From Byssothecium circinans (taxonomy: Eukaryota; Ascomycota; Dothideomycetes; Pleosporales; Massarinaceae): a stretch of 64,000 nucleotides of DNA. Where the stretch lies: assembly GCA_010015675.1 (NCBI GenBank), contig ML976982.1, positions 1,499,059-1,563,058 on the forward strand, given 5' to 3'. Below the pieces are notes generated by a model. That model was not told where the DNA came from. It searched no databases and worked only from the letters and a program-made list of their open reading frames with translations. Within the stretch, counting starts at the first letter, position 1; every line of letters begins with the position of its first letter. This document shows positions 29,906 through 63,817 of this stretch, piece after piece. The translations under genes were made by a program, and so were the position numbers.

Positions 29906-32128
29906 ATGGCAAACTCGCCAAAGTCGTTCATCCACTGCTGCGTGGCTGCCTTGTTGCTCGCACATACTGTGCATGCAGTTGTCACGATCCAGAGCACCCT
30001 ACTGATTCTCTCTCGCGATCCGAATGCGACCTTGTCGGGCACCGCAGTCCTTCAGGGCTACGGCATCCCGTACCAAGTCATTAATCTCGCACTTCCTGCA
30101 GCTGGCTTCCCTCAACTCAATTCCACGCCTGATGCTGGAAACTTTGGCGGTATTGTCGCTGTTAGCTCGCGTAGCTATACGAACGGCGATGATTGGAACA
30201 CAGCACTGAACGAGAAGCAATGGCAAGAGTTGTATAGCTATCAAGAGGCATTTGGAGTAAGGATGGTGCGGCTGAACTCCTGGCCGAGCGAGAAAGACTT
30301 TGGAGTGCAAAGTACTGGTGGATTAGTCACTGCAGATCAACCCATTGCTATCACAAATAACAAGGCCTTTCTGAGCGCCAATATTATTTCGTAAGTGCCA
30401 GCTGTTGAGGTCTTTCTAGTGCTTTAGACTAACCCACATTACAGGAATGCCCAAATGAGCACATTGAACTTGAGAAAATACCCAGCGAAGATCACAAACA
30501 CCTCACTTGCAACAGAGATCGCGACATTTGGCAGCGGGACCTCGAAGACTACGGCAGCTGTTATGAACAAATTCCCAAGCGGCCGCGAGCAGCAAGTGTG
30601 GTTCACAACCTTTGATCCGAATCTAATCTCCTCAACACTTCTCTCGCATGCATGGATTCACTGGGTTACACGCGGACTTTTCCTCGGTTTCCGACGTGTC
30701 TACTTGAATACCCAGGTCGACGACGTCTTTGTTAAGACAGAGCTATACCAGACCGGCAAGTCTTTTCGAGTCGCAGTCGACGACCTCAAAGCGCACGTAA
30801 CATGGACGAAAGAAGTTAATTCAAAGCTTCCGCCTGGCTCCTCATATACGATTGAACTCGGACACAATGGGAATGGCAATATTGAAGAAGCAGTCGAGCA
30901 CGACTATGACAGTGAAACCGCCCAATGCGACCCTCAAGAAGGCGTAGACTATGCCGATCAAATTGACGGCCCACCGGAATACATGAAACCAATTGGAACT
31001 GGGAAAGACCTATGGGACAAAAAGTTCAAGAACTATTCATGGTCGCTTAGGTGCTCGAATCTCGACCCCATGCTAGTATATCTTGCGGATAAGTCCAATA
31101 GACAGAATTACTACCACGTCTCACACACATTCACCCACGAAGATCAAACGAATGCGACGTATGCCGACGTTGTGAAAGAAATCACTTGGAACCAAGAGTG
31201 GTTCAAGCGCATCGGCTTCGCAGACGCTGACTTTTCATCCCATTTCTCACCCAAGGGCCTGATCCCACCCGGCATCACTGGGCTCCACAATGGCGACGCC
31301 CTCCGTGCTTGGGTCGAAAACGGCATCATCTATGCCGTCGGAGACAATGCACGCCCAATCCTCATGAATGTCCCGAGCCGTAAATCAGATTACCACCCAA
31401 TAAACACTAACGTCAAGGAGAACGGGTATGAGGGTGTATACATCATCGCTCGCTTTGGTTCCTCAATCTACTACAACTGCGACACAACCGACTGCGTGAA
31501 CACTGAGTGGAAAGCCATTGCCGGCGGGACGGGCGACTTCAATGCACAGCTCGAGTACGAGAAGACGACGAATGCGAAGTATTTGCTCGCACTCAGATGG
31601 GATCCGTATATGTTCCATCAGGCGAACATGAGGGTTAGCGATTTGAAGGAGTCTACGTGGTTGGGGAAGACGAAGAAGTGGAGTTTGTTGATGGCTTGGA
31701 CGGAGGCGGTTGTGTATGAAGTTGTGAGACTGTAAGATACCTCGCCCTTTTCTTTTGACGTTTCCCTACATTTTGGTTATGACATGAGGTGTAGTTGATT
31801 ATACTAATGTGACTGCAGGACTGAGTGGCCCATAATAACGCTCAAGCACGACGATGTTGCAAAAGCCATCATCGCCCGCAGGACTTGCGATGAATGTGCG
31901 CCTAGTCTCTCGTACCAACTTTCGGATGACAGGAAGTCGATTACGGGTATCACTGTTAGCGCGAAGAACACGAAATGCGAGACTGCGATCCCGGTCACTG
32001 TACCGAGTGATGTGAGTAGCGCGGCGAGCGCAAAGAAGGAGCAAGTTGGAAAGGATCCATTGACGCTTTGGGTGACGCTTAATGGCGGCGCGAAGACGTA
32101 TACGCTAGCCAGTGCAGTGAAGATATAG
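29906..32128 (+). CDS. agd3: Agd3-type secreted polysaccharide deacetylase (CE18)
   Basis: About 693 residues from three exons: 29906..30390, 30445..31731, 31819..32128 (donors GTAAGT, GTAAGA; CTAAC branch; CAG acceptors). In Aspergillus fumigatus, Agd3 removes acetyl groups from N-acetylgalactosamine units of galactosaminogalactan, making the adhesive cationic exopolysaccharide. Visible: signal peptide in MANSPKSFIHCCVAALLLAH (start ATG in ACCATGG context, preferred over an upstream in-frame ATG at 29864); a Rossmann-like N-terminal domain; FTTFDPNLISSTLLSHAWIH; the catalytic NTQVDD motif; and the metal-binding HTFTHE motif, followed by EITWNQEWF. The usual galactosaminogalactan cluster partners are not visible nearby. 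No catalytic residue appears lost. Confidence 0.88.
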
Positions 32129-39845: not shown

Positions 39846-41738
39846 ATGGATCCAATTGACAAGGCAATTGAAGAAATCAAATCGCGTGGACTAGGAGAAG
39901 AATGCTCATATCAAAAAATAGCAAAAAAATATGGTGTACCAGATACTACGTTAAGGAGGATACACTAGGGCAAAAACCTGCCAATGAAAGAGCAACAACT
40001 CTAACGGCGAAAGCTCACCCCTTAATAAGAACTAGAGCTTGTAAGCTATATAGAAAAGCTTACAGCCCGTCATCTACCACCTACAAGGGAGATGCTGTAG
40101 AATTTTGTTTCATTAATTACTTAAACTAACGGCGAATAACTAGTAGGAAAAAGCTAGGTTACCTAATTTATTAACCATTATAACGTTAAAATCACCCCCC
40201 ATTAGGCCACTAGAATGGATCGCGTGCGCCACCAAGCTAATTTAGGAGTTAAATACGAGCAATTCTTTCAACTTCTACTAGAGAAAATTGAGGAGTATGA
40301 TATAGAGCCTCGTCACACGTATAATATAGATGAGAAGGGCTTCCTCACAGGGGTGATTAGAAGAAGCAAAAGGATCTTTAGCAAAGCCATGTGGGACCAC
40401 GGGGAAGTGAAATTAGCCCTCTAAGATAGCAATAGAGAGTAGATAACTATCCTAGCTTACGTTTATACTAATAGAACAGCGTTGCCACTAGGCCTACTAT
40501 TTGCAGCTGCCAATAACGCTCTCCAATCAGCCTGGGTAGAGGATATTAAGGCTAGGAAGCATGAGGTTTTCATTACTACTTCTCCTAATAGATGGACTAG
40601 CAACAATATAGGCCTTACGTGGCTTAAGCAGATCTTTAATCAGTATACAAAAGCAAAAGCTCGTTAAGCCTACTAATTACTAATCCTAGATGGCCATAGG
40701 TCCCACGTAACTATGGACTTTATCAACTACTATAACTACAATTAAATTCTCCTTATAATCTTTCCTCCTTATTTAACGCACACGCTGCAGCCCCTTAATA
40801 TAGTACTCTTTAAGCCTCTCTTATCAGCCTACTTAAAAGCTCTCACTACCTACCTCCATGAGGCCCAGGGACTACTCTTAGTAAAGAAAGGAGACTTCTT
40901 CCCTCTCTTCTAGGAGGCCTGGACTACCTCCTTTAAAAAGGAAATAATTCTAAAGTCCTTTAAGGCTACTAGTATATGGCCCTATAACCCTAGTGTAATC
41001 CTCTAAAGGTTTATTAAATTAACGCTAGAGCTACAGGATTTGAGAGAGAGCTCTACCTTAGTACTCAGCGGCAAGGATTAGCTTAAAATTAAGACCCTTA
41101 TGCGTAAGGCTGTAAGGGATGAGGGCAGTAAGGAGGTGTAGAAGCTAAAGCGTTCTCTCTACTATATCTCTATTTAAAATGACATACTCCACGCTAAGGT
41201 ACAAGGCCTGACAAAGGCCCTACAAGTTAAGAAGAAGCATTAGAAGAAGAGCAAGCCTCTAGACCTACAGCAACGCAAGGAGTACCATGGTAGAGCAGTT
41301 TTCTAGTCCCTAAGGAAGCTAAGGGAGGCTAGAGTACGTTCAGCTATTAAGGATTAAGAAAAAGAGGAGCAATAACTTAAGAAGGCTCATAAGAAAGCAG
41401 AACAGGCCTCAGCTAAGCTACGTAAGCTACAAGAGAAGGAAGAAAGAGAAAGGTTGAGGGCTAAGAAGAAGGAGGAAAAGGAGAGGATCGCGGTGGGGAA
41501 GGAGGCTGAGAAACAACGCAAGATTTAGGAGAAAGAAAACTCTAAAAAGGCTACACAAACTTCCCAAAAGGGAAAGAGGAAGGCCTTAAAGCCTGCCGCA
41601 GCGCCAAAACAGAAGAAAAAATAACGTGTGGTGGTTGCTGAGGATAGGGGGGATAGGGGTAGTGAAATGGCGCGTGATCCAGCACCTACAACCACAACGC
41701 GCCGTGGCCGTAACATTAAACTTCCAGTGAAATTCTAA
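39846..41738 (+). pseudogene. Fot1/pogo-like transposase, RIP-degraded
   Basis: Starts MDPIDKAIEEIKSRG with a Psq-type helix-turn-helix (SYQKIAKKYGVPDTTL), 90 bp inside the element. DDE-domain blocks can be followed: YNIDEKGFLTGV (first Asp) at about 40320, then LLILDGHRSHVTMDF (second Asp) at about 40680, HTLQPLNIVLFKPL, and a Lys/Glu-rich C-terminus ending GRNIKLPVKF. At least a dozen in-frame TAA/TAG codons interrupt it, almost all explicable as CAA/CAG to TAA/TAG (C-to-T in a CpA context), the RIP signature. Not functional. Confidence 0.9.
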
Positions 41739-41848
41739 TAGCGCATCTTTTTCGCAGCAATTTGTATAGTAATTGAATGAATTATTAGAATATTCTAGCT
41801 ATTATGGATGGCTCAGTAACGAGGTGTTGTAAACTGCGTGATTTGGTT

Positions 41849-41894
41849 GGGGTGCGCCATTTGCTGAACCCCGCCAAGTGCTGAACCAACACGT
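41849..41894 (-). repeat. right terminal inverted repeat
   Basis: Exact inverse complement of the left repeat over all 46 bp, ending ...ccaacacgt next to the TA duplication. Confidence 0.92.
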
Positions 41895-42141
41895 TACAGT
41901 TCACCACTTGTTACGCAGCAAACAAAGATTGTTGCCTACATATACCATCACTTTCCATGTGAATTTTGACTTTGGAGATGCACAATTTCTTAGAGGTATT
42001 TACTACCTACCGGAACGGCTTGTTATAACTATGCCTACCCCAAAAATTTGCGCTCGGTACGTCTTTCTTGCTTCCAGGGTCATCATAAAGCCTTCGCAAC
42101 TCTGCTAACACCCGAAAAGTTGTATTGCACTTAGCGAGTGG

Positions 42142-44227
42142 ATGAGACGAGAAGGTGATGCCCATGTAGAGGACAAATCCGGTCCCTTCAGCCTTACCGA
42201 TGGCGCATCTCTTATGTCAAATGCCCACACTTGTTCCTTTTGCAGTGTCTTGGTTGAGCACTTAAAAGAAAAGGATCTTCACCTTGATAGTACGGTAATA
42301 ATTTCCGCTTATGTGGAGGAGAAGACAAGGCAAGATCTGATTTCAGTCTTTAAAATCATTGCGGAACGGGAGGGCCGCATGCTAGGGGGTGACACTTGGG
42401 ACGAAGATGGAATTCCGAGTATTGAAATTGACGTTTGGGCGGACATTGGTACACAAAAGGCGCTGTCGACAACACCCCCAATAAAAAGCTATGGAGGTCG
42501 AGAAACGATTGATCTCGTATACGACTGGCTTAGTACTTGCTACCGCAACCACGCCGAATGTCGAAGGTCTCTGAGCGGAGCACATATCGAAGAAAATTCA
42601 CGACTCATACCTGCGGATCGCATTCTCGACATCGGCACCGAACCATCTGATCCTATCAAGCTCGTCAAAGCTATTGGACTCAAAGGCAGGTATTGCGCAT
42701 TAAGCCATTGCTGGGGCAGTCCAGATGGTCCACAGCCGACACGTGTCATACTAGCTAACGAGAAACGCTTCATGGAGGGTGTGCAGTGTCCCGAGTTGTC
42801 GAAGACTTTCCAAGACACTGTTCACATAGTTCGTAGTTTGGGTATACGATACTTGTGGATCGATTCCCTCTGTATCATCCAGGACTCAGCCGAACATTGG
42901 TTACGCGAGTCTAAACGCATGGGATTGATCTATGAAGGCGCATACCTCCGCATCGCTGCCGCGGGAGCACAGAATTCATCCGAAGGCCTCTTTTCCCCAG
43001 AAGACCACGACAACCCAAAGTACCGGACGATATCAATACCACTTCTCACCGGCAACAACGGCGGAAATCCTGACTGTATATATTTGCGGCGATCGAAACC
43101 TAGACTCAAATGGCCCCGTGATGGCCCTCTAGTAAAACGAGCCTGGGTCTTTCAAGAATGGTTCCTCTCTCGGCGCACCGTGTCTTTCATGCTCGCCTAT
43201 CTGAATTGGTCCTGCAAAAGGTACACGAATCTTGACGAGCGCGACAACTACTAAGGCATAGTAGCCACATACTACGGTATTCGCAACTTGGGGCCTACGT
43301 ATTGGGAGCTTTGTATGTGGTTCTACTCGCGTTTGCATTTGACGCATGAAAGCGACCGGCTGGAGGCGATTCAAGGGTTGGTCAAAGAGATAAAGAAAAT
43401 TAGAGAGAATGATGATAAGTATGTGATGGGCATGTGGAAAAAAGATTTACCGAAGCAGCTGCTGTGGCACACGAGGGAGGTGAGGATGGGTATGAGAGGG
43501 AGGAAAGATTTGCCGAGTTGGACGTGGGCGAGTCGGGCGGGGAGTAAGAAACCCGTTTATGTTCCCGATCACGGAGAGGATAGTGAGCTGGATTCTGTTG
43601 TCACTACGGATGAGTACTCAGGTCTGTGTGCGACATTGATCTCTGTCAATGAGCGGATGGTTGAGTTGAAAGGGAGTTTGATCGAGTGCGGTTTGGGAAA
43701 GAGATTGGATGGCTGTTGTCATGATCAGGCTCTGAACCCAAGTGCGGAGTTTGCGATCTTTCATACTGTTGGACCTGCGGTCTACCAGCTACGGAACAGT
43801 GACACAGATATCGGATCGATGATCGGGATTGTGCAGCTGGATGAGGAGAAGGAGTGTAGCACGCTTTACTTCTGCATCTTGCTTGTTGGGGAAAGAAATC
43901 GGGCTTCCAAGCTACGGAGAAGAGAGGAAAGTGATGGTAAGGAAAGAACAGGAAAGTCGGTGCAGGTCTATTTCGACAATATGGGCGAGCGCGCAGAGGA
44001 ATTCATCGCCGATTACGTGAGTATGGGGTTCTGAACAATATATGATGGAATACTGACAGAAATAGCATGCGATTAAACGTTGTGGGTCAAGCGAAATCTT
44101 CTATTGGACTCTGATAGTGGAGCCAACTGGCGAAGAGGATACTTTTCGTCGTGTTGGCGTCGGAATCGTCTGGCCTTCACAGTATATAGAAGATCGGCCA
44201 CTAGAAGATGCCTTCAAACTTGTGTAA
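42142..44227 (+). pseudogene. HET-domain (heterokaryon incompatibility) gene with in-frame stop
   Basis: Exon 1 42142..44016 and exon 2 44066..44227 (GTGAGT donor, CTGAC branch, ATAG acceptor) would code about 678 residues if a single TAA at 43252-43254 were read through. HET motifs: GRYCALSHCWG, LSKTFQDTVHIVRSLGIRYLWIDSLCIIQD, EGAYLRIAAAGAQNSSEGLF, and KRAWVFQEWFLSRRT. C-terminal FRRVGVGIVW fits the family. HET proteins trigger cell death when genetically different hyphae fuse. The stop lies after the HET core in an otherwise open frame; an intron at 43220-43260 was tested and breaks the frame. The gene starts 248 bp from the transposon end. It could still make a truncated 370-residue HET-core protein. 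Confidence 0.8.
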
Positions 44228-46931: not shown

Positions 46932-47736
46932 CAAGCAAGATTCCGACATGTTGTACAGTCCCAGTCCTCATAGGACCTAGAACTCTCCACCCCCACCGAT
47001 ACTAGGTCGCAATTCAACGAGATCGCAAACCAGTGATCAAGGCGAGGGACGAAAGCTCCGAGAGGTGGCGCGGCATCCTGAAGAAGAATCTTTTCACCTA
47101 TCATATAAGGGTGAGGAGGATGAGGGCAATCTATGGGAGCCACATGGTATAAAGGATAAATACGGGAATTAACTGCGATGTTTTATGTCATGTTGTAATT
47201 GTAGGAAGGGAGTTTGAATAGCAGCAAGAATGGAGGTAGCGGTGTGTTATGACTCATACCCTAGGCAGAAGCATTTTACGCTATTGAGACTTGTACCTTA
47301 TCAGGCTTTTACAGTGCAAGTCGCCGAACAATCATATTATGGGCTGCGTAGCCCGAGGCATGGACTGTGAAAATGCGAGCACGCCTGACACAAGCTCACA
47401 TCAGCCTGTTCATTGGTTCGGGCATGTTAACCGAAATCTTCCCTCAACCGCCAGCTGGCATGTCCAACATTTTTGCAAAACCTGCCTCCTCCTTTGCGAC
47501 GCGATAACGCGGTTTCCGTGCCAACATCGTCTCAAATTACTTTGGCCCTGGCTTCTTCATCCTTTCTTTATTTTGGATGTTTATGATGATTTATCAATGA
47601 TCCCGCCGCCGAGAGCTCTCAACTCCTGCCGACATTACCCCACCTCACGTGCTCTCACACTTTCCCCGACACCCCGACATCTGGAGGTCCCACTGCATGC
47701 GGACACCAGAGCCCCGACCCCCTATCAACCACCATC
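46932..47736. other. intergenic region upstream of F-box gene
   Basis: No gene seen. The sequence just before 47737 (ACCACCATC context) is the leader of the F-box gene. Confidence 0.5.
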
Positions 47737-49287
47737 ATGAGTCTCCTGGATCTCCCGGTCGAAATACTGGATACGATTCTTGACCTCAGCCTTCCGTCTG
47801 GTCTCGAGGGACTTGTGCTCTCGTGCAGAGCCATATATGAGAGAGCGGGATCACAAATACGACGACACAATGAACTAAAGCGGAAATGGAGACACACGAC
47901 CAATCATCAGTCTAGACGCGTCGACAATACAATTCAAATTCTATATGAGATTTCGCGCGAGCCGCTGGCCGCAAAATACATTGAAGAGCTGGATCTATGG
48001 GATGATAGATGGCGAGCCGATGGTCAAGCGGAATTGGAGGACGATGACAACACCGAGATCACTGAGGTGGAAGCGACCCCCGAGACGTTTCGCAGGAGTC
48101 AAGAAGCTATGAGGTCAATCAAGACTTTGGTCACCAACTCGCTCCAACAGTACGACACGGACGTCGACTTGGCAGACTTCTGGGAACACATGATGAAGGA
48201 AGAGCTACACCCCGAAAACGAAGACTTTCTTGAGTCGTCGTGCACTGTCATTGGTCTCCTCAGCTTGCTTCCCAATGTTCGCACCTTGCGGTTGCCGGGC
48301 TGGTGGGAAGGCGTGCAGGAAGAAGCCGGCAACGCTCTCAACCAACTCGTCGCCGCTGCAAACAGAAATGGCAGTCACGACAAGCCACTCGGAAAACTCA
48401 CAACAATCCTTCCCTCTATGCACGGTGGCTATGAGGAAAAGACGAGCCTGCAAGATCTGCTACCATTGCTAACTCTTCAGTCGTTGACTGAGGTGTACCT
48501 CGTTAGTACGGTCGCAGTCGATGACGGATACACCGGGATGCCGTTCTCCTGGCCTTCAGGTGCGGGCGTTGCGTCCTCGCTCAAACGCCTCGAGCTCGTA
48601 TCTTGTTGCATAGACGCAGAGGGCTTGTCCGGCCTCATTGCATACACTCCTAATCTCACCATTTTCAAGTACTCTCATGAAACGAAGCATCATGGGTGTC
48701 AGCACGATTGGAATCCCGGCACCTTCACCGAGACGCTAGGCCGCCACTGTGGTAGCACTCTCATTGAGGTCGCACTCACCATCGATGACCTTCATGGCAC
48801 CATTATCAACGGCGCATCGTCTTTCCTCTCTTTCCCTCGGCTAGAGAAGGTGGAAGTCGACGTCCAAATTTTCTGCGGACCACCCGTAGAATCTGGCCAA
48901 CGGCGGGGCCCGGACGCTTTCGTGCCCGAGGGAGAAAGACCCTGGTCGCAGCACGATATTCCTTGTATCGGAAGCATGCTGCCGGATAGCGTTCGCGAGG
49001 TACAGATCAATGTCGATCACCCGGAACCGGACGAGGAGGCGTTGCGTGCGCTGTTGAAGAATTTGAAGACGCAGAGGGCTGAGCGTCTGCATCGGCTTGA
49101 AAGGGCCATCGTCAGGCAGTATGGTGGTAGTAGCACCATGGAAATGGTGACAAGTGCGGGTGCGACGATGGAGGCTTTCGATAAAGATGTGGATGCAGCA
49201 ACTAAGAGAAGAAGAATGGATATGCCAGAGTGGAAGAGAATTTTTCATGAGCGGGTGGCAAGGCTGCAGCCTCGCGAGATTCAGTGA
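47737..49287 (+). CDS. F-box protein
   Basis: 516 residues, no intron. N-terminal F-box at residues about 2-40 (LLDLPVEILDTILDLSLPSG, then LVLSCRAIYERAG), the Skp1-binding module of SCF ubiquitin ligases. The rest is a leucine-rich, irregular repeat region (TVIGLLSLLPNVRTLRLPGW, LLTLQSLTEVYLVSTV, LKRLELVSCCIDAEGLSGLI) that resembles the LRR-like part of many fungal F-box proteins and would bind a substrate. The C-terminus is charged (RRRMDMPEWKRIF). Substrate unknown. Intact, in contrast to its upstream neighbour. Confidence 0.85.
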   Translation: MSLLDLPVEILDTILDLSLPSGLEGLVLSCRAIYERAGSQIRRHNELKRKWRHTTNHQSRRVDNTIQILYEISREPLAAKYIEELDLWDDRWRADGQAELEDDDNTEITEVEATPETFRRSQEAMRSIKTLVTNSLQQYDTDVDLADFWEHMMKEELHPENEDFLESSCTVIGLLSLLPNVRTLRLPGWWEGVQEEAGNALNQLVAAANRNGSHDKPLGKLTTILPSMHGGYEEKTSLQDLLPLLTLQSLTEVYLVSTVAVDDGYTGMPFSWPSGAGVASSLKRLELVSCCIDAEGLSGLIAYTPNLTIFKYSHETKHHGCQHDWNPGTFTETLGRHCGSTLIEVALTIDDLHGTIINGASSFLSFPRLEKVEVDVQIFCGPPVESGQRRGPDAFVPEGERPWSQHDIPCIGSMLPDSVREVQINVDHPEPDEEALRALLKNLKTQRAERLHRLERAIVRQYGGSSTMEMVTSAGATMEAFDKDVDAATKRRRMDMPEWKRIFHERVARLQPREIQ

Positions 49288-53208: not shown

Positions 53209-53621
53209 CTACAAATTGGCTTTGATGTCCTTCAGAGCCGCTATAACACTGATACCCTCGCCCCTTGCAACTCTCCTGCCATTCTCATCTCCTAGAAAAA
53301 TCTCGGCGTCGGTAACTTCGAGGCTACGGGGTGAACAACGGATGTAGAAAACCTTCTCCTGCCCACAACCTGGTGCCTTTTCAATTACCAGGCCTAGATG
53401 CTTGTCAGTGCATGTGGCTCTCTCTCTCTCCATCTAAGAACGTGGCGGTACTCACGAACAGTTTCACCAGCCAGCTTTGTGGTCGGGAGCTGGATGACTG
53501 GGTCGAGGGGCACTTCGTTCCCAGCGGCATCCTCGGCGTAAACAGTGGTCTCAAACTCCGGATGGCCGCTTCCGCGGGTGCCTACGATTTTGAAGGTGTG
53601 GTGCCAGATAGGGTAAGTCAT
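53209..53621 (-). CDS. tandem small-protein family, copy A
   Basis: 116 residues; exon 1 53621..53456, exon 2 53393..53209, phase-1 intron (GTGAGT donor, CATCTAG acceptor). Family not recognised. N-terminal beta-like block TYPIWHHTFKIVG, then VYAEDAAGNEVPLDP, matching the SEDAAG of copy C. The C-terminal block EKVFYIRCSPRS...TDAEIFLGDENGRRVARGEG...ALKDI matches the FYVLVSRSG...AEIFKVGQGK...ALRNL block of copy F. No signal peptide, cysteine framework or membrane segment, so probably cytosolic. A TATA box (minus-strand TATAAAAT) lies about 120 bp upstream at 53738-53745, so it has its own promoter. Shortest member: the central part present in copies C and F is missing. Confidence 0.7.
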
Positions 53622-54027
53622 GCTTAAAACTTTCTTGAAGCAAGTATCTTTCTAGACTATGCGCTTTGGTTCTATGCTGTAGAAGGTGTATGTTTCGCGC
53701 ACGGGTAGCAGTAGGGAAAGACGTACGGGGGTATGGTATTTTATATGCAGTGGAGCTGCTGTTAGAAATTGAAGAAGTGAACTGTCACTCGCGTCAACTG
53801 AGATGAATTTTTGCCCCAGATCAACTACGTGTACGTAATACGTAGGAAAGTATCGAAGTGGCGAAGGTTACGCTAGATCATTTACACGTTCACATGTAGC
53901 GTTCTTCACCGGTCTAGAGATCTCACCAAAACGCGCTCACTGGAAAGAACAATCACAGATCTCCACCCAATCCATGTTTCAATTTCACCATCGCCTCGCC
54001 GTATGGGATGTATCTATCTCGTGCTCA
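53622..54027. promoter_or_regulatory. promoter region of copy A
   Basis: 406 bp between the copy A start and the copy B stop. It contains the TATA element of copy A; nothing else is seen. Confidence 0.45.
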
Positions 54028-54465
54028 TCATGATCTTGTCTGGCTTAGCACGCGCATCTTATCCCGCAAGTCAGTCAGCGCATCCAAATCCGACTCTCCC
54101 CTGCCCTGAAAATCCACTTCCATTGTGCTGTACTCGTCATGTACCTTCTGACCTGCAAGCACGAACGCTCTGAATCCTCCTGTCGGATAGATGTATAACG
54201 AGATCGTGAAAGCATATGACAACGGGAGACTGTCGAGCGCACACTCTGCTAGCCTGTCAGTCATTGTCACCCGTCGGAACAGCGAGAAGGTCAAACCTCC
54301 AATTTCTTGCACGATGCTCCACATACGATCGGTTGGATTGATTTCAAATGGTGGGTTGAACGCAGCTTCGCTAGGACGCGGCCGTAGATTCCGTTTGAAG
54401 TGAAGTTTTCCTTCGGCGTCGCGGGTTGGTTCGTCGAGACCGAAACTGATAATGGGGTCGTTCAT
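54028..54465 (-). CDS. tandem small-protein family, copy B (divergent, intronless)
   Basis: 145 residues from the ATG at 54465; no intron needed. Its place, strand and size fit the array. Its C-terminus (GGFRAFVLAGQKVHDEYSTM, then GRGESDLDALTDLRDKMRVL) follows the same pattern as the exon-2 block of the other copies (aromatic-rich strand, acidic/Met strand, G-G turn, helix with ALxDL). The N-terminal 90 residues do not resemble the others. A TATAAAG element at 54615-54621 (minus) is about 150 bp upstream. It may be a distant paralogue or an unrelated insert; function unknown. Confidence 0.55.
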   Translation of the reverse strand: MNDPIISFGLDEPTRDAEGKLHFKRNLRPRPSEAAFNPPFEINPTDRMWSIVQEIGGLTFSLFRRVTMTDRLAECALDSLPLSYAFTISLYIYPTGGFRAFVLAGQKVHDEYSTMEVDFQGRGESDLDALTDLRDKMRVLSQTRS

Positions 54466-54720
54466 CGTTGATAGCAGGTTTGGGGAAGGAAAGGAGAGAG
54501 ACGTCAACAAAGATGGTAGTGACGTAAGTTCGCAGTGATTGCGTAGCAGGATGGTCTGGATTGGCCGCAGTTGATGTGTGTGTGGAAGGTCATCGGGATC
54601 GGTTATCTGCCCCGCTTTATAGTGTGAAGTTTGCCATGGCCTGCTTGGTAGCAACCATGTTGGTGATTGCGTATGCGTAGATGTTTCTTTGAGCGCAATG
54701 GAGTTTGTGTTTGCTGTAGC

Positions 54721-54893
54721 CTAGAAGTAGAAGTCACCCGACTTTTCACAGAAAACACCAAGTTTGTAAGAGCATTCGAACGGTAATTTAGATCGATTGC
54801 AATGAAAGAATAACTGTCGACTGGAAAACTCCTCCCACGGTTTGCCACTGGCGTCCCTAAGGTAGAGATCCAAAACGACTATTCCACTGCTTA
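54721..54893 (-). pseudogene. possible exon-1 relic of the small-protein family
   Basis: Directly after the copy C stop codon, the minus strand reads IVVLDLYLRDASGKPWEEFS, which resembles the FFIESEDAAGRPVTPY stretch of copy C exon 1. It ends in a stop at 54721 with no second exon beyond. Weak evidence, but another copy fragment would fit the array. Confidence 0.25.
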
Positions 54894-55438
54894 CTAACCC
54901 CTCCAAATACCCAACTGCTCATGTACGTACCGCTGCATGATCGCTCGCATAGCTTCTAAATGATTGCTTCCCGTCGCCGTCTTGACTGCCACTGTTCTTC
55001 CACGGTCGAGATACATGGTCGCTTCAAAGTGGTCCGTGTTCTTCGTCGAACAAATATAGAATTCCGTCGCATGTCTGTAGTCGTTCTGCGCATAAGCTGT
55101 GAACTGTCAGTCATATTCCTGGCGGCAGTTTTTTCATGTTTGCACTTACCCACAGCTCCCCGCGCAGACGCCATCAACAGCGCCAAAGCATACGAGACTC
55201 GCTTCCCGGGTACCTGCATCCCCCTGATTCTCACCGACTCGCGATACCTGCGACCCGTCTCTTGTAGGGCTTGACTTTTCCGGGCTATCATCCACCGAAG
55301 AGTGCTTACTTTGCGGTAAGGTGTAACAGGCCGACCCGCGGCATCCTCGGATTCGATGAAAAACGAGTAATCCTTTTTGGCAACGCTAACGTAAATGTGG
55401 TAGGTTGTTGCGGCAAACCTGTCGTGATGCAGAACCAT
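54894..55438 (-). CDS. tandem small-protein family, copy C
   Basis: 163 residues; exon 1 55438..55150, exon 2 55096..54894, phase-1 intron of 53 nt (GTAAGT donor, CTGAC branch, TTCACAG acceptor). Exon 1: TTYHIYVSVAKKDYSFFIES then EDAAGRPVTPYRK, a basic helical middle, and IRGMQVPGKRVSYALALLMA leading to the splice at ARGAVG. Exon 2: TEFYICSTKNTDHFEATMYL, then RTVAVKTATGSNHLEAMRAI. These three blocks define the family and align with copies D and F. TATATAAG at 55571-55578 (minus) about 135 bp upstream. No signal peptide or membrane helix; probably cytosolic. Function unknown. Confidence 0.75.
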
Positions 55439-56358
55439 AATTTGCTATAGTAAATCTTCGGTTGAAATAAAGCTTTCGTGAACAGGGAAGGGTAAAGAGT
55501 GCTACAAGGCCGGCTTGAAGGATTCTGAACTCTCGTCTTTGTGGCAAATAAAACAAGGAGCGGACGGCGCCTTATATATCTGTCTTCGCAGGCAGTGAAC
55601 CTCGAGTGAATGCAACGGTCATGTGATTGAAGGTTGAGACAGGTGAGATTCCAAGGATTTCCCGTCAATATGGATCATAAGGAAGTCCACATAATTTACC
55701 TTCCATGAGCTTCTCGATAGATCGGGAACGTTTGGCGATGTACACAAACTCTATGAGACCAGTCACTTCCAAGACGGGCGTTGCGGGGCGCAAGAATGCC
55801 TAATGAGGTGAACTAAAACATTACCTCTTCAAATGATGGATCCTCATTCGTAAGGTCCTCTGGCCCAAATTCACTCTGATACCCCAAGTTCGCCGCCCAA
55901 CTTCAATTCTCATCTTCATCATGAGATAGAAGTGCAACGCGGACTTCAAGGTCATCCAAAAAGTGAGTGTCGAAATGAAATTCCATCTGAAGTCTTGTAT
56001 TCACGGCTTGGTATGGCCTTGCGAGTTTCATGTCCGAGAATTTGAGTTTTCTCAAATCTCTGTCACTGAACCAGTCGGCAACTTATCAGTGCAAGGGAGC
56101 TTTTGAACATTCGGACCGTCGAAGGTGTCAGGTTTTCCATCACAGTACGCATGTACATGTTGTACACAGCCAGGCCCATGTTCACAGTTTTCAGTTGTAC
56201 TCTTGGATAGCCGTATTTGTATGGAAATCGAATAAGATGCATCATCTAGTGCCAAGTATGCCCTTTGGGCTATTCACACTCTTGGAGGAAGATCTTCCTT
56301 ACTAGTAGGATTCTAAATCGCTCCATTTTTCTCGCTATATGGCGGAGTGGATCGTTGC
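55439..56358. other. region between copies C and D, possible relics
   Basis: No intact gene. Promoter of copy C on the left. Minus-strand protein-like bits: MALDDASYSISIQIRLSKST near 56250 and TRLQMEFHFDTHFLDDLEVR near 55980. The first vaguely recalls the family N-terminus, the second does not. Treated as debris. Confidence 0.35.
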
Positions 56359-57028
56359 TCACCTTCTGGGCAGGACGCTGCTCTCCATGCTCCTCTTAGC
56401 CAGGTTCTTCCTGATATATTGCTCCCGGATATCGCAAACAGCCTGCCAGTGATCCACTCCTTGGCCCTTCTCCACCAACACTTGTTTCTCATCAACCGTA
56501 TACATTGTCGCCTGGAAGTTATCGTTCGTGCCTATAGAGCAGATGTAAAACTCTTCACCATCGCGATATTCCCCCAAAGCTTGGCCTGCAACGAAAGTGA
56601 GCTCATAGTTTAACAGCGCTCAAGAAGCTGAGTTAACTCACAAACCGCGGCCCTCGCCAGCAACGTCAACTGAGCCATCGCGTATGCTTCCTTTCTCCTA
56701 GGGACTCTCTCGCCAGCTTTCTCGGCTGCGTCTCTGATGTTGCGTGTTGCGACTCCATTCTCGAGTAGCATGGTACACTCCTGTTCGCACATGGGGCGAA
56801 AGAAGATAAAATTGTGTCGCTGTTTGTTCTCTTTGTAAACCCAGTGACGATGCCAAAACTCGGACAGTCGATCTCTGGCTGGTTTGTGGTACTCAATCAA
56901 ATGCTGATCGGTGATATCCTCAGCGCGAATCATAGAAGAGTAGTCTCTTTCTGAAAAGCGTCGTTCTTGAGTACCGTTATGTAGATGTGATACGTTGGCG
57001 CGATCAGTTCCTTAGCATCGATATCCAT
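56359..57028 (-). pseudogene. tandem small-protein family, copy D (frameshift in exon 1)
   Basis: Starts MDIDAKELIAPTYHIYITVL, almost the same as copy F (ARYLIAPIYHIHITV). The frame then breaks near 56957-56969, where one base seems to be missing. The next frame continues SSMIRAEDITDQHLIEYHKP through AGERVPRRKEAYAMAQLTLL to the splice at ARAAVC. Intron 56641..56586 (GTGAGT donor, TTGCAG acceptor), phase 1. Exon 2 56585..56359 is intact: EEFYICSIGTNDNFQATMYT, then VLVEKGQGVDHWQAV. An ATG at 56930 (MIRAED) could restart translation. Either a recent pseudogene or an assembly indel; function unknown. Confidence 0.65.
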
Positions 57029-57504
57029 GGTGGTATATTGTAGGTAAAACGCTTGGTGGGAATGTGAAACAGTGCCATAAAAACTGTTGTGGGTCGAAAA
57101 GTCGTGTAGTGACTCTGCAAGGTTCTCGACGGATTCTTATAGGAGCTGTGCGCTTGATTTTCAATTTTCGACACCTGATTGAATCGCTATTCACCGACAG
57201 AGTGACGTCCCAGTGTTGTTCGCGGACTGCTAATGCAACATCGTTCAATTGAAGGACTCAACGCCTGCAACACAATATTGAATATCATATCTTCACCTTC
57301 TGCACTATCTTACAAACCAGGTTCTAGTAAAAAATCACCCCCACATAAATGTCTTTGTAACCGTCCATCTTCCAAAGGAGGCGATCCATTGCTAGCTTTA
57401 AAGTTGTGGCTATAACTCATTTATTACCTCTCCGCGTTTACAAAGCTCTTATTGGGAAATGTAGAACAAGTTTTCAAACGCAAAACACGATCAATGATGT
57501 TTGC
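57029..57504. promoter_or_regulatory. promoter region of copy D
   Basis: About 475 bp without a gene. A TATAAGAATC-type element (minus) near 57135 lies about 105 bp upstream of the copy D start. Confidence 0.35.
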
Positions 57505-57693
57505 TTACTGTTCGGTCGCTCTTCTTTCATACAGCAGTTCAAGGCCTAGAATAAGGAAAACTTTTCGTACGAGTTTATAGAACTGCTTGCGGGTATATTC
57601 ACGGAGGAGGAGGAGAATCGAATCAAGATAAATGAATTCAGGGACAGGTTCCGGGACCTTGACAGTATTTACTGTTAAGAGGATTCGCTTCTC
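57505..57693 (-). pseudogene. small-protein family relic D' (exon 2 only)
   Basis: Minus frame EKRILLTVNTVKVPEPVPEF continues to KQFYKLVRKVFLILG. Aligned without gaps to exon 2 of copy F, the arginine that opens the block and the QF pair are 36 residues apart in both, and E17 of the block is shared. Upstream sequence shows no exon 1. Probably a decayed copy. Confidence 0.35.
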
Positions 57694-57880
57694 TGTTTTG
57701 TTGGGATTAGTTAGTAGAGAGACCAATAGCAGCTATGACAAAGAGGATGCTCGTACCCCACCGGCAAAAAACCACATGTCTAGGACGCACGACTGCCTTC
57801 TCCTCCCTGCGACACGGACGCATGAAATTCAACACGCATCTCCATGAGTGCCAATTCAATCTCTTCCTACCAGTATTATA

Positions 57881-58200
57881 TTAGCTACCATGGTAAGAAG
57901 TAACGCCAACAGATTTTCTCCCCTTCTAGAAATGGAGGAAAGAAAGGGCTGACAAGAGAGAGAGAGAGAGAGAGAACATACTTCTTTAAGATAACGCGGC
58001 ACATCCATCACGAATTGACCTCTTCTGTACTTCTAAAATCCCAATAGATACCTTAGTTTTAGAGGAACGAGATACATATATCCCCGCCGCCGCCGCCACC
58101 GCTCACGTACCAGTTTCCACGCCTCTTCTGGAAAAAGTCGCGATAGAAGTTCGTGGAGCATCTCCATGCTGATAAATCGATTTTTAAGCGTCTGTTTCAT
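57881..58200 (-). CDS. candidate 61-residue three-exon protein
   Basis: Minus strand: exon 1 58200..58111 (MEMLHELLSRLFPEEAWKL at its end), intron 78 nt with GTACGT donor and TTTTAG acceptor, exon 2 58032..57982 (KYRRGQFVMDVPRYLKE), intron 56 nt with GTATGT donor and TTCTAG acceptor, exon 3 57925..57881 to a TAA. All joints are phase 0 and remove stops. The second intron holds a (GA)n microsatellite (about 57955-57974). The pattern LxxLFP...GQFVMDVPRYL recalls small uncharacterised fungal proteins but I cannot name the family. It lies inside the paralogue array and could be unrelated to it. Confidence 0.35.
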
Positions 58201-58839
58201 AGTGTGCACAATTAAGTGGCCGCTGGTTCAACTTGTCTCTCGTTGTAAAAGGTTTGTGTGTGCGTGTTGTGTGTTCTAGGTTCTAGTAAGATAGAGTCGA
58301 CGCTAAACGTAGGCACCAGCACGGCGTTTCTTACGTACAATTCCGGTTCTAACCGCAAGTAGATGCGGTGAATACTATCCGTGGCATTGGAAGGCTTACC
58401 TCACGTTATGGCACTACAGTTTCATCAGCTAAATATCTGCAATTTCAACGCCACAGGTCCTTCTTACACGTTCCATGATGCGCACCGTAAGTAAGTGCAT
58501 GCACAACATGAGCTTGCGACCATTGCGGGCGAAAGAATACATCCCGCTCGCTGTACCGAAGAAATCGACCGCAGAAGTTTCGCGCATGTCTCTCATCCGT
58601 CGTATCGCAGGCATTTATTGAGACATTTTCAGTCCCGTCATAGTTAAGCTTGTCGGTCCCTATCTCGAATTATTCCACGGCAACCCGCACATGTTGTGAC
58701 ATCACCACCGACTGCGACAACGGGCGAGAGAACCCAGGCTTAGCAGTTGGGTTCTCTGTGCCGTCGCGGGCCTTGATGCACGCTTCCACACATCCCACTT
58801 ATCTGGGCAAGGAACGCGCCGTTCATTGAGCTCGCAAAA
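58201..58839. other. spacer within the array
   Basis: No intact gene. A minus frame from about 58590 (AVDFFGTASGMYSFARNGRK and on) ends next to a GTAAGA donor-like site and could be a damaged exon, but there is no partner exon. Confidence 0.35.
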
Positions 58840-59040
58840 ACTGATCTCAAAGCGTGTATTGATGACTTTAGCGTAGAAACCCTCTAAATTTTGACGTACT
58901 TGCCAGTCATCTCTGCCAGGGAGAGAGGGACAAAGTGTCTCAGAGGGCTTTTTATATATCTCAGCTACGTGGGTGTGGGTGTCGCCCATCCGAAAAAGTA
59001 TATACAAAACCAACACGGTTGCTCTCACTGGCTGATCTCG
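58840..59040 (-). pseudogene. small-protein family relic E (exon 2 only)
   Basis: Minus strand reads LYILFRMGDTHTHVAEIYKK and DDWQVRQNLEGFYAKVI. Aligned with copy F exon 2 (FYVLVSRSGNTAQAEIFKVG, and NDQFRALRNLEGLV), it shares AEI, the D-x-[FW] pair and NLEG in the right spacing. No exon 1 is found upstream, where a fragment of a different gene begins. A clear but truncated copy. Confidence 0.6.
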
Positions 59041-59127
59041 AAAACAATATCATGACAACCTTTTGCTATCGGCTCAAAGTTTTGAGATCGATCACCTTCA
59101 ACATGGTTCATTCGTGGCGGCAGCTTT

Positions 59128-59328
59128 GAGAGTTATCATGAGATTTTCGACGGTATCGGTCCTGTAAAGGCCTCACTGCAGCACCTGAAGGTCAATTACA
59201 TCGACTTTGGTGGCCAGGCCATCTACGCGATTTATATGGGTCCGAATCCCGATGTCTATGAATTTGATAGGCTCAATCTTCCGGACTGGCTGGCGCTTCG
59301 CCGCCTCCCCAAAGATGCAGGATGGTAA
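59128..59328 (+). pseudogene. F-box/LRR-type protein fragment
   Basis: 67 codons on the opposite strand to the array: ESYHEIFDGIGPVKASLQHL, VNYIDFGGQAIYAIYMG, then FDRLNLPDWLALRRLPKDAG, then TAA. The S-LQHL...LRRL pattern is common in leucine-rich parts of fungal F-box proteins. No start or further exons; a relic inserted into or caught within the array. Confidence 0.4.
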
Positions 59329-59732
59329 GAGGTGGGATCTTTATAATTGTGAAGATGGTCGCCCACTACTTGACCATTACGGCTTGTTACCTCCTAGCCT
59401 TAATGTTTTCGTCGGCAGGGCTACTACCTTTTCAGGTTAAAATTAAGCTTGACTTTCTCCTGTCTTTGATGTTATCTTTCGATGTTGGATACTTCTGTCT
59501 ATAAGGCTGCACAGTGCGCTCTCTTTACACTTTCAGGCCTAAAGCTTCTGCAGCCTATTTATTGGCACGCAGGCTTGAGTATATATCGTATTTGAGAAAG
59601 AGTATCGGTTATATCATGATTGTACGTTATAAACAATGAAATACATGATTCTGCAGCATCAGAATGATCTTGCTCCTTCCGTGAGGCCAACGCAACGCCG
59701 ATCTTGCAAAAAGGGGGGGGGGGGGGGGAAGA
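59329..59732. other. spacer with poly-G run
   Basis: No gene seen. A run of about 16 G at about 59713-59728 lies just beyond the copy F stop codon; such runs are prone to sequencing error. Confidence 0.45.
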
Positions 59733-60390
59733 CTACCATTTCCGGCCCTGAGCCCTATGATAACAAGCGTTCACCAATCCTTCAAGATTACGCAATGCTC
59801 TGAACTGATCATTTCCCGTTCCCATGGCGATCGACTTCCCCTGTCCTACCTTAAATATCTCCGCCTGGGCAGTATTTCCGGAACGCGAAACTAGCACATA
59901 AAAGCTCCTCTCATCTTGGCTTATGTTCAATGCCTGAGCTATATCTTAGGTCAGTAATTCCTAACATATGCAAGGAAATTGTACAGCACACACCAACGGC
60001 GACTTTCGCGGACTCAACCAAATTTACCATCTGAATACCTTCACTCTTGCTGGGCACCCTTAAATTTCTTTTCTGGGCCTCCTCTTGTACGTTTCTAACG
60101 GGCTGAGCCATAGCTTTCTTCTCAGCTGCGTTTATCCTCCGTGTCTGATTTTTGAAACCCAATATATCATAAAAGGCATCCCCGGGGTACTCGGGGTTGG
60201 TTTTGTCGGTTTTCACACTCTTCCAGTAGTTGGACCATCTCTCGCTGAAGCCCTTATGGAATTGAGGTGCGGACTGGCTGGCAGCTGAATCTTCGGCAAA
60301 GATGTTGGTTGTCCAATCGCCATCGGTGTTGACGGTAATGTGGATATGGTAGATCGGAGCTATGAGGTAACGTGCGTCGCAAGTGCCCAT
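59733..60390 (-). CDS. tandem small-protein family, copy F
   Basis: 200 residues, the longest intact copy; exon 1 60390..59994, exon 2 59938..59733, phase-1 intron of 55 nt (GTGTGT donor, ACTGAC branch, ATATAG acceptor). Exon 1: IAPIYHIHITVNTDGDWTTN, FAEDSAASQSAP, a long basic/aromatic middle (GFSERWSNYWKSVKTDKTN), then KRNLRVPSKSEGIQMVNLVE to the splice at SAKVAVG. Exon 2: ERSFYVLVSRSGNTAQAEIF, VGQGKSIAMGTGNDQFRAL, RNLEGLVNACYHR. TATAAATA at 60491-60498 (minus) about 105 bp upstream. Function unknown. It is the best reference copy for database searches. Confidence 0.78.
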
Positions 60391-61282
60391 TGTGGTAGTA
60401 CTTTGAATATTCTTCCACGTACGAGTGCAGGCTGATGTAAGGTTCTGCTTTCGAGTCTTTATGTGGTGTAAATCTAGGCAGGCAGTCGCTTATTTATAAC
60501 AATAAGCTGTGAGCGATGAATGAAGGCCTAATCAATGAGAAATGTGACGTAGAAGATCGATATCCCAAACAGATTTGAGAATAGAAGCACACATTCACTG
60601 CTGACTAGGACTCCGTATCAAGAACACTCTAAAGCGCAGTGAAAGATTACGGCTTTGCTGCCTATGATATATGAAGAATACAGGTGAATTATATGATCGT
60701 TACCCTGAATAACACAATGATGACACCGCACAAACAGCTCGACACGTCGTTATACAAATTGAAATGACTTCAATCACTGCACACCTTGCGCTATGCGCTT
60801 TCCATTTTCGTACACTCGTGATGTTCTAAGTGAGTATCCTGAGCTCTGCGCACTTCATTTCTGACACGTTGGCCCCTTATCACTTCCACTGGAATGAACG
60901 TGGTTTCGAGGTGCGCAAAGCAGCAACTTTGATAGTACGCATGCCAGAGATGCACTTGACATGTCACTGTGCAGAGTATGAGTGTATTGAAGCTAGTAAA
61001 GGCATTATTAACTATTGATCAACGTCTGCATAAGTAGTAACGATATATAAATCGGTCAGTAAGTAGTGACCTTAGGGCTTACCTCCGCGTCTGATACCGA
61101 TTAGAGCAGCGCATCAGCTAGGTATAAGCGCTCACCCTTACCAACTAGGCTTACTTTCTAATCCCAATGACAGAGACTGGCTCCTAAAACCAAATTGCAG
61201 ATACACACTAGAAACGATCACCTCGGCATAGTCCCGTACGCTGACCCTTTCTCCCCCGCCTACGAATATTTTTCGAATCAAT
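60391..61282. other. promoter of copy F and spacer
   Basis: Contains the copy F TATA box; otherwise no gene seen over about 890 bp. AT-rich. Confidence 0.45.
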
Positions 61283-61809
61283 CTATGCTGTCACCCAACT
61301 CGCAGCTATTTTCATCCTTTGTAATGCCTTCCCCAAATTATACACAGCATCAGTATGACTTTTGCCCTTGGCTCTCGCAAGCGGTCCCTCTACATCAGCC
61401 ACAGAAACCGTAGCTTCAAACACTACTCCGCAGCGAGCAACAGTAACATAGTACTGCAGCGCCTCACCATGCATAAGCATCGCTCGATCTGTCACCTTCG
61501 TCAGCCAACATTCTGCTCTCAAACATTTTTCGAAGATGGGAAAGACATACTGACAACTTTCCTCGTACTCTCAACTAATTTGACAATTTCCATGCCTTCC
61601 TTGAAAGTAGGGCTCTGTATACCCTCACACTTTGCACTATCCTGAAGGATACTGATGTTTTCGTATGTATCGAGCTCTTCGCAGCGGTTTGGCTGGACAT
61701 TTTTCCGGGAGAAACTGATGGAGAAGCTGGTATCCTGTTCATGCGATGACAAAGTAAGGCAGACGTGCTGAGTGGATGAGATGAGAGTAACTGTATATTG
61801 AGCGCTCAT
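61283..61809 (-). CDS. tandem small-protein family, copy G
   Basis: 162 residues; exon 1 61809..61551, exon 2 61512..61283, phase-1 intron of only 38 nt (GTATGT donor, GAGCAG acceptor). Exon 1: MSAQYTVTLISSTQHVCLTL, a diverged N-terminus, then SPTFKEGMEIVKLVESTRKV, which matches the VPSKSEGIQMVNLVESAKVA stretch of copy F at the same distance from the splice. Exon 2: LQYYVTVARCGVVFEATVSV then AKGKSHTDAVYNLGKALQRM, the usual strand-strand-helix block. TATAAAAT at 61878-61885 (minus) is about 70 bp upstream. Function unknown. Confidence 0.72.
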
Positions 61810-61987
61810 TTTGACTTGCTTGTGGGTTTGTTACAAACTTGGCGAGCAGGTTGACAGTGTATATTAGCGCGCATAAAATTTTATAAAGAACCTTCGCCTT
61901 CGCAGAAGATCGAAATCACAGCGATCATTCAAGAGGCAAGTCTCTTCACTGAACACGACCACCTCACTATACTAAACAATACCCAGC

Positions 61988-62269
61988 TCACTCCACTTTA
62001 TGCGCACCTATATCCGCTTCTGAAAGTTTAGAATTCCTTTCTCGCTCGATTTCACAAATTAGATACCCTGCATAGCAGCGACTATCTCTAAAGGTCATTC
62101 GGACCGCACCATCCTGCTCTTCTTCCTCGATCATTGCCTCGAAATACTTGTGCGCTGTCGTAGTCGTGACAATAATCCAATCCCGGAGGGTTCCTCGACA
62201 AACTTCATGCGGTTATCTTTCGCGCATAGCGCCACGTTACTTTGAGAGACGTGAAACTAAATACTCACC
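61988..62269 (-). pseudogene. small-protein family relic H (exon 1 end plus exon 2)
   Basis: Exon-2-like frame 62202..61988: TLRDWIIVTTTTAHKYFEAM followed by a Glu-rich turn, aligning with the EFYICSTKNTDHFEATMYL block of copy C. A GTGAGT donor at 62268 ends a short exon-1 remnant (SDTIQQLNANLL), and joining at phase 1 to an AAG acceptor at 62203 keeps the frame, as in the other copies. No N-terminal TYHIY block or start codon can be found upstream, so the copy is truncated. Confidence 0.5.
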
Positions 62270-62509: not shown

Positions 62510-63372
62510 TCACGAGTTCGGGAAGTACTTCTTATTGAACTCGTCCACAATCTGCCTTGCAGCAGTGACAATCTCAAGCGCACCAGGCGAATCCGAGTGA
62601 CAACACAGCGAAACATGATCATCGCCAATGGGCAGTGGTATCTCCTCGCCAGTAACAGCAGTAACCGCCGCGTTTTCAACCTGGGTCCTCACATGCTTCT
62701 TCGTCTCATCAGGATGCCATGGCCTGTATCGCGTCAGCAACCATGCGTTCTTCGCCTCATCTCGACCTACTTCTTCTTCCGATCAATGACCAACGTGCCA
62801 TCTTTATTATACTTCACATCGCCATATATCTCCGCCACAAACGGCAGGCCCATCTCCTTCGCGACCTCTTCATGCAGCGTACCCGCCAGTCCAAAAACAG
62901 GCGTCCCCTTCGGCACGCCCTCATACACCGCCCTGCACGTCTCCTTATCCCCATACATCATCCCATAGAGTATGCCATGCGGCTTCACATGGTTCAGAGG
63001 CATGTTTTCGGCGTCGAGGAAGGCTTTGAGGGCACCGACTTGATAGCGCACGGCGGCTGTGAGCTCCTCAGGGGACATTTTGATTTCACGGCGGCCGAAG
63101 CCTTGGATATCGGGGAGGCCGGGGTGTGCGCCTACGAGGATGTTATGGGCTTTGCAGGCACGGACTGTGTTTTGCATTATAAGAGGGTCACTGATGTTTT
63201 AGTCGGATGCTATACCAAACGAAAGAGGGAAAGCTCACCCAGCGTGGAAACCACACGCAACGTTCGCATGGTCGATGAGAGGGATCAGTTCATCATCGGG
63301 ACCGCATTTGAAGTTTCCGTACCCTTCGCCGAGGTCGACGTTGATTTTGACGGGATGCTTGATAGCGGCCAT
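62510..63372 (-). CDS. LamB/YcsF family protein (PxpA-like 5-oxoprolinase subunit A)
   Basis: 255 residues from exons 63372..63239, 63190..62771, 62723..62510 (donors GTGAGC and GTAGGT; acceptors ATCAG and TACAG; frames join exactly). In bacteria PxpA works with PxpB and PxpC to open 5-oxoproline (pyroglutamate) to glutamate with ATP. Visible: [73 protein letters not shown], then [19 protein letters not shown]. Length equals bacterial homologues (about 250). Divergent from a biotin-carboxylase gene, a pairing that fits a fungal 5-oxoproline or urea-amidolyase-related pathway. Intact. Confidence 0.88.
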
Positions 63373-63769: not shown

Positions 63770-63817
63770 ATGGAGAAACTCCGAAACCTCCTCATCGCGA
63801 ACCGAGGCGAAATCGCG
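63770..63817 (+). CDS. biotin carboxylase-type gene, exon 1 (partial, interrupted)
   Basis: Exon 1 codes MEKLRNLLIANRGEIA, the invariant start of biotin carboxylase domains (acetyl-CoA, propionyl-CoA, pyruvate, urea carboxylases and biotin-dependent PxpB/C-type fusions), which would continue VRI. It ends at a GTAGGT donor at 63818. The expected second exon does not follow: 57 nt into the intron, just after a CTGAC branch-point motif (63864-63868), a transposon begins. Given the divergent PxpA-like neighbour, the gene may be a urea-amidolyase-like or 5-oxoprolinase-associated carboxylase. The rest lies outside the window. Confidence 0.75.

Follow-up and report, generated by a model that had tools for sequence, protein, structure and literature searches.

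The final 64 kb of a 1,563,058-base contig (ML976982.1) from the 48.4 Mb genome of the fungus Byssothecium circinans, referred to below as the window, carries an array of small protein-coding genes between 53.2 and 61.8 kb. The related copies A, C, D, F and G follow one another there head to tail, all on the minus strand, and the locus holds five, perhaps seven, tandem paralogues, which are separate genes that have a single phase-1 intron apiece. We tentatively read them as old tandem paralogues whose C-terminal unit has a predicted double-stranded RNA-binding domain (dsRBD) fold and works like the protein-binding or dimerising surface of Type B dsRBDs. As far as our searches show, the family is undescribed: no matching description was found among the literature titles and abstract openings searched, in which subscription journals are mostly uncovered.

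Gene models were built on the minus strand with scored GT-AG introns, and membership was assessed with profiles from which each copy was left out in turn, run against the 1631 six-frame stop-to-stop open reading frames of at least 25 aa in the window. The C-terminal exon was recovered with E 2.9e-23 for C (a value obtained with its 66% identical relative from Massarina eburnea, P280DRAFT_484799, kept in the profile), 4.3e-14 for D, 8.1e-8 for F, 2.7e-7 for A and 1.3e-3 for G. For the N-terminal exon the values were 1.2e-27 (C), 4.3e-5 (F), 0.01 (G) and 0.39 (A), and the two upstream pieces of D, which were never part of the N-terminal profile, were found by it with E 1.5e-7 and 0.0039. These profiles establish the homology of A, C, D, F and G at the level of sequence. 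All five have in common a single phase-1 intron, placed exactly 20 residues past a conserved proline in C, D, F and G; the helix preceding it is about 11 residues shorter in A, where the exact intron place cannot be equated with that of the other four. The intact proteins are 116-200 aa long and consist of an N-terminal beta module and a C-terminal unit, with no hydrophobic leader obvious by eye in A, C, F or G. Internal duplication of the two protein halves was tried as an explanation and rejected (E 0.33, not above decoys). The initial annotation had proposed one undescribed family, arranged head to tail, with shared sequence blocks that it named. This was borne out for the five copies, which turned out neither unrelated to each other nor members of one characterised family. 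Its count of at least eight copies was not confirmed: these five are shown, B and E are suggestive and H and D' are unsupported.

The four doubtful copies were checked by shuffling, and the fractions given here are raw and per candidate. Of 1000 profile shuffles, a score was reported by 449 for B and by 534 for E. B is an open frame of 145 aa (54031-54465, minus strand; the stop is next, at 54028), and the sole part of it that scores is the last 18-residue motif, for which 3/1000 and 2/120 shuffles did as well; against single members the best result was matched by 31/500. E is a 47-residue stretch (58870-59010, minus strand) aligning along the C-terminal unit. Shuffles as good as E were 6/1000 and 2/120 with the profile, 3/500 with F, 33/500 with D and 143-388/500 with the other four single members. 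At about 0.3-2% against shuffles, E and the 18-residue motif of B are suggestive as members by sequence. H was unsupported both by the C-terminal profile (120/1000 and 61/120 shuffles as good) and by the N-terminal one (27/1000), as was D' (153/1000 and 323/1000 with the two profiles).

At E <= 10 no Pfam family, PF00035 included, was matched by A, C, F, G, B, H or P280DRAFT_484799. The earlier statement that the proteins have no known domain holds for Pfam, NCBIfam and PADLOC, with one weak NCBIfam match, to the SSU0593 family, at E 0.013-0.047, far below cut-off. Weak similarity was also seen to P-II proteins (E 0.65-0.85), to titin (0.89) and to a chitinase (0.5). The B. circinans genome contains four PF00035 matches, two of them above cut-off, and comparison of the family profiles with five tested dsRBD loci of this genome gave a best E of 0.61. 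Nothing reached E 0.001 in a viral fold library. Two rows, an Orf virus interferon-resistance fragment (probability 0.90) and, from swinepox, a dsRNA-binding PKR inhibitor (0.54), are mixed with unrelated rows, of which some have a higher probability.

Two AlphaFold2 models, of G and of the M. eburnea protein, were obtained with pLDDT 70.6 and 73.4. In both of them the C-terminal half is alpha-beta-beta-beta-alpha, the element order of a Type B dsRBD. Of the 50 structural rows (VIA) listed for the G model, 41 have a dsRBD or hibernation-factor fold, with modest Z values, and the 50 rows listed for the M. eburnea protein are all MHC-like platforms; the VIA lists show only some folds, and the true one may lie outside them. 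A dsRBD fold of the C-terminal unit is, on these models, a sub-threshold prediction. The proteins could instead have another fold, a six-stranded sheet with helices that is MHC-platform-like or an unlisted alpha/beta fold, in which case the dsRBD likeness would reflect a common arrangement and the proteins would act in the cytosol as small binding modules. We take this seriously but somewhat doubt it: the G model and the profile comparison favour dsRBDs, and the MHC rows have 5-14% identity with a root-mean-square deviation of 4.2-5.3. A ribosome-binding, hibernation-factor-like protein is also suggested by the top VIA rows for G, which are HPF chains and cover an N-terminal strand too. HPF and protein Y are matched at modest Z, tied with dsRBD rows and without a sequence match, and the array consists of fungal nuclear genes with an intron; this explanation seems very improbable.

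In canonical dsRBDs a pair of lysines where the last helix begins (region 3) contacts dsRNA. Type B dsRBDs, such as those of TRBP, PACT, Loquacious and Staufen, are without these lysines and serve for protein binding or dimerisation (PMC5716075, in excerpt). The lysine pair is missing in all six aligned members of the array family, and because it is absent, as in Type B dsRBDs, the unit may be a protein-binding and probably dimerising module. The likeness to the third dsRBD of TRBP, PACT and Loquacious and to Staufen dsRBD5 (as described in the excerpted text of PMC5716075) lies in the predicted alpha-beta-beta-beta-alpha order and in the missing region-3 lysines (6/6). Unlike these, the array proteins are stand-alone and small, carry an N-terminal beta module, are encoded in tandem and do not match PF00035, and their protein binding is putative. 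Each intact protein would combine its N-terminal beta module with a dsRBD-like C-terminal unit serving as a Type B-like surface for protein binding or dimerisation. The diverged paralogues may pair among themselves, or the partner might be a dsRNA-processing protein such as Dicer or RNase III. The isoelectric point of the whole protein ranges from 5.6 (A) to 10.0 (C), and the C-terminal half has a charge of +4 in C, P280DRAFT_484799, F and G; given this mixed charge, weak nucleic-acid binding could still occur.

Protein identity between the paralogues is about 17-26%, and a blastn comparison of 52.5-63.5 kb with itself gave no match at E 1; recent duplication was rejected on this basis. As no DNA-level similarity is left between them, the copies are old paralogues and not fresh ones, and the initial proposal of a fresh birth-and-death series was not upheld. 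Neither was its description of copies at all stages of decay, since four of the five copies are open and D is broken. Searches of 5.8 billion proteins at E <= 10 with C, F and an alignment of C, P280DRAFT_484799, F, G and A yielded proteins of B. circinans and M. eburnea and of no other species; shared 5-residue words were required, and distant relatives may escape. When D exon 2, F, P280DRAFT_484799, A, G and B were each searched against the B. circinans genome, they matched array places only, apart from one match of G at E 1 outside the array, on C65, where the frame by eye resembles a transposase. From the sequences seen so far, the family appears confined to these two Massarinaceae fungi. 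The low identity between paralogues contrasts with the 66% that C shares with its M. eburnea relative, which fits old duplications and one conserved member. On the simplest reading of the sequences, the duplications would predate the divergence of the two genera, and C would be the most strongly constrained copy; alternatively, later duplicates may have diverged very fast. Repeat-induced point mutation (RIP) was rejected as the cause of divergence, the composite index of the array being -0.36 against -0.40 for positions 1-52000. The copies themselves range from -0.24 to -0.66 and the spacer between A and C reaches +0.04. The index exceeds 0 in 11 of 127 one-kb windows, one of which (57501) is within the array.

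The restricted distribution and strong divergence of the paralogues would also suit fast-evolving recognition or conflict genes, as the initial annotation had proposed, acting perhaps in allorecognition or against mycoviruses. A HET-domain gene (42109-43251, plus strand; PF06985, E 8.3e-29) lies about 10 kb from copy A and may serve as a lead only. In the sources as excerpted, the lineage-specific genes of Neurospora are found clustered with HET genes (PMC10684091), and allorecognition in Podospora involves a small PII-like protein that acts together with a HET protein (PMC10890737). However, C is 66% conserved across genera, there are no recent copies and the HET gene is not adjacent to the array, so that we regard a recognition or conflict role as unlikely.

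Copy A (53209-53621) encodes 116 aa in exon 1 (53456-53621) and exon 2 (53209-53393, stop included), separated by an intron at 53394-53455; a second acceptor, at 53370, is equal in score. Copy C (54894-55438; 163 aa) has exon 1 at 55150-55438, an intron at 55097-55149 and exon 2, with the stop, at 54894-55096. Two introns of C were equal in score, and the choice was decided by the public B. circinans model CC80DRAFT_544437 and the M. eburnea protein P280DRAFT_484799, which is likewise 163 aa long and is 66% identical to C over the full length. CC80DRAFT_544437 (290 aa; 54031-55438, minus strand) has nearly all of C as its first part and runs on into B. Because the M. eburnea relative stops at the same residues as C, this fusion is probably a prediction error in which two genes were joined. 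Copy D (56359-57028) has its frame broken near the N-terminus: the N-terminal piece meets a stop at 56930-56932 and the rest lies in a second open frame, with an intron at 56586-56641 and a last exon at 56359-56585. Copy F (59733-60390; 200 aa) consists of exon 1 (59994-60390), an intron (59939-59993) and exon 2 with the stop (59733-59938), and copy G (61283-61809; 154 aa) of exon 1 (61551-61809), an intron (61489-61550) and exon 2 with the stop (61283-61488). The models of F and G are letter-identical to the NCBI proteins CC80DRAFT_501281 and CC80DRAFT_581040 of B. circinans, whereas A and D are absent from the NCBI proteins returned by the searches. CC80DRAFT_544437, CC80DRAFT_501281, CC80DRAFT_581040 and P280DRAFT_484799 are each on record as a hypothetical protein of its own, unassigned to any family.

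A TATAWA box was found within 160 nt upstream of five of the six genes considered (A, B, C, F and G, not D), whereas the fraction of random 160-nt stretches with such a box is 0.11 for the window and 0.18 for the array. On the minus strand the boxes are at 53740-53745 for A, 55573-55578 for C, 60493-60498 for F and 61880-61885 for G. This distribution in the sequence fits separate promoters for each gene. That the copies are relics of a dead, non-functional gene family is highly improbable. The break in D and the codon usage, which is mostly indistinguishable from the null, would agree with decay, but the training genes themselves show weak codon bias, and codon usage was uninformative. Moreover, C is conserved at 66% over its full length between genera, four open paralogues persist at 17-26% identity, the intron phase is conserved and TATA-like boxes are present.

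A two-piece LamB/YcsF gene (62510-63198, minus strand; PF03746) adjoins the array. Beyond it, a frame starting MEKLRNLLIANRGEIA at 63770, which resembles the start of a biotin carboxylase, precedes a repeat at the contig end (63865-64000) that has 39 genome matches including itself and whose frame, judged by eye, resembles the beginning of a transposase. A subtelomeric position was considered and rejected, the contig end being this repeat and inspection of the final 521 bases by eye showing no telomere repeat. On the other side of the array, a 565-aa open frame (47590-49284, plus strand) has a weak match to the death effector domain (PF01335, E 0.002, below cut-off). A stretch at 40001-42000, beside the HET gene, has a RIP-like dinucleotide signature with a composite index of up to 1.25 and is probably an old repeat. 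An Agd3-type polysaccharide deacetylase is encoded at 30428-31732 on the plus strand (PF25115, E 3.3e-143).

Fungal dsRBDs are often missed by profile search, and a survey (PMC12663654, in excerpt) reports that neither a PAZ nor a dsRBD domain is detectable in 62.7% of identified fungal Dicers. A more specific and decidedly speculative picture, to which we give a slim chance, is that these are Massarinaceae-specific, stand-alone Type B-like dsRBD proteins from one old array, which would pair in varying combinations and, in the role of small adaptors or decoys, modulate RNA silencing or a different dsRNA pathway. If the dsRBD reading is true, this orphan cluster would belong to a known fold as an old, very diverged branch that had stayed hidden.
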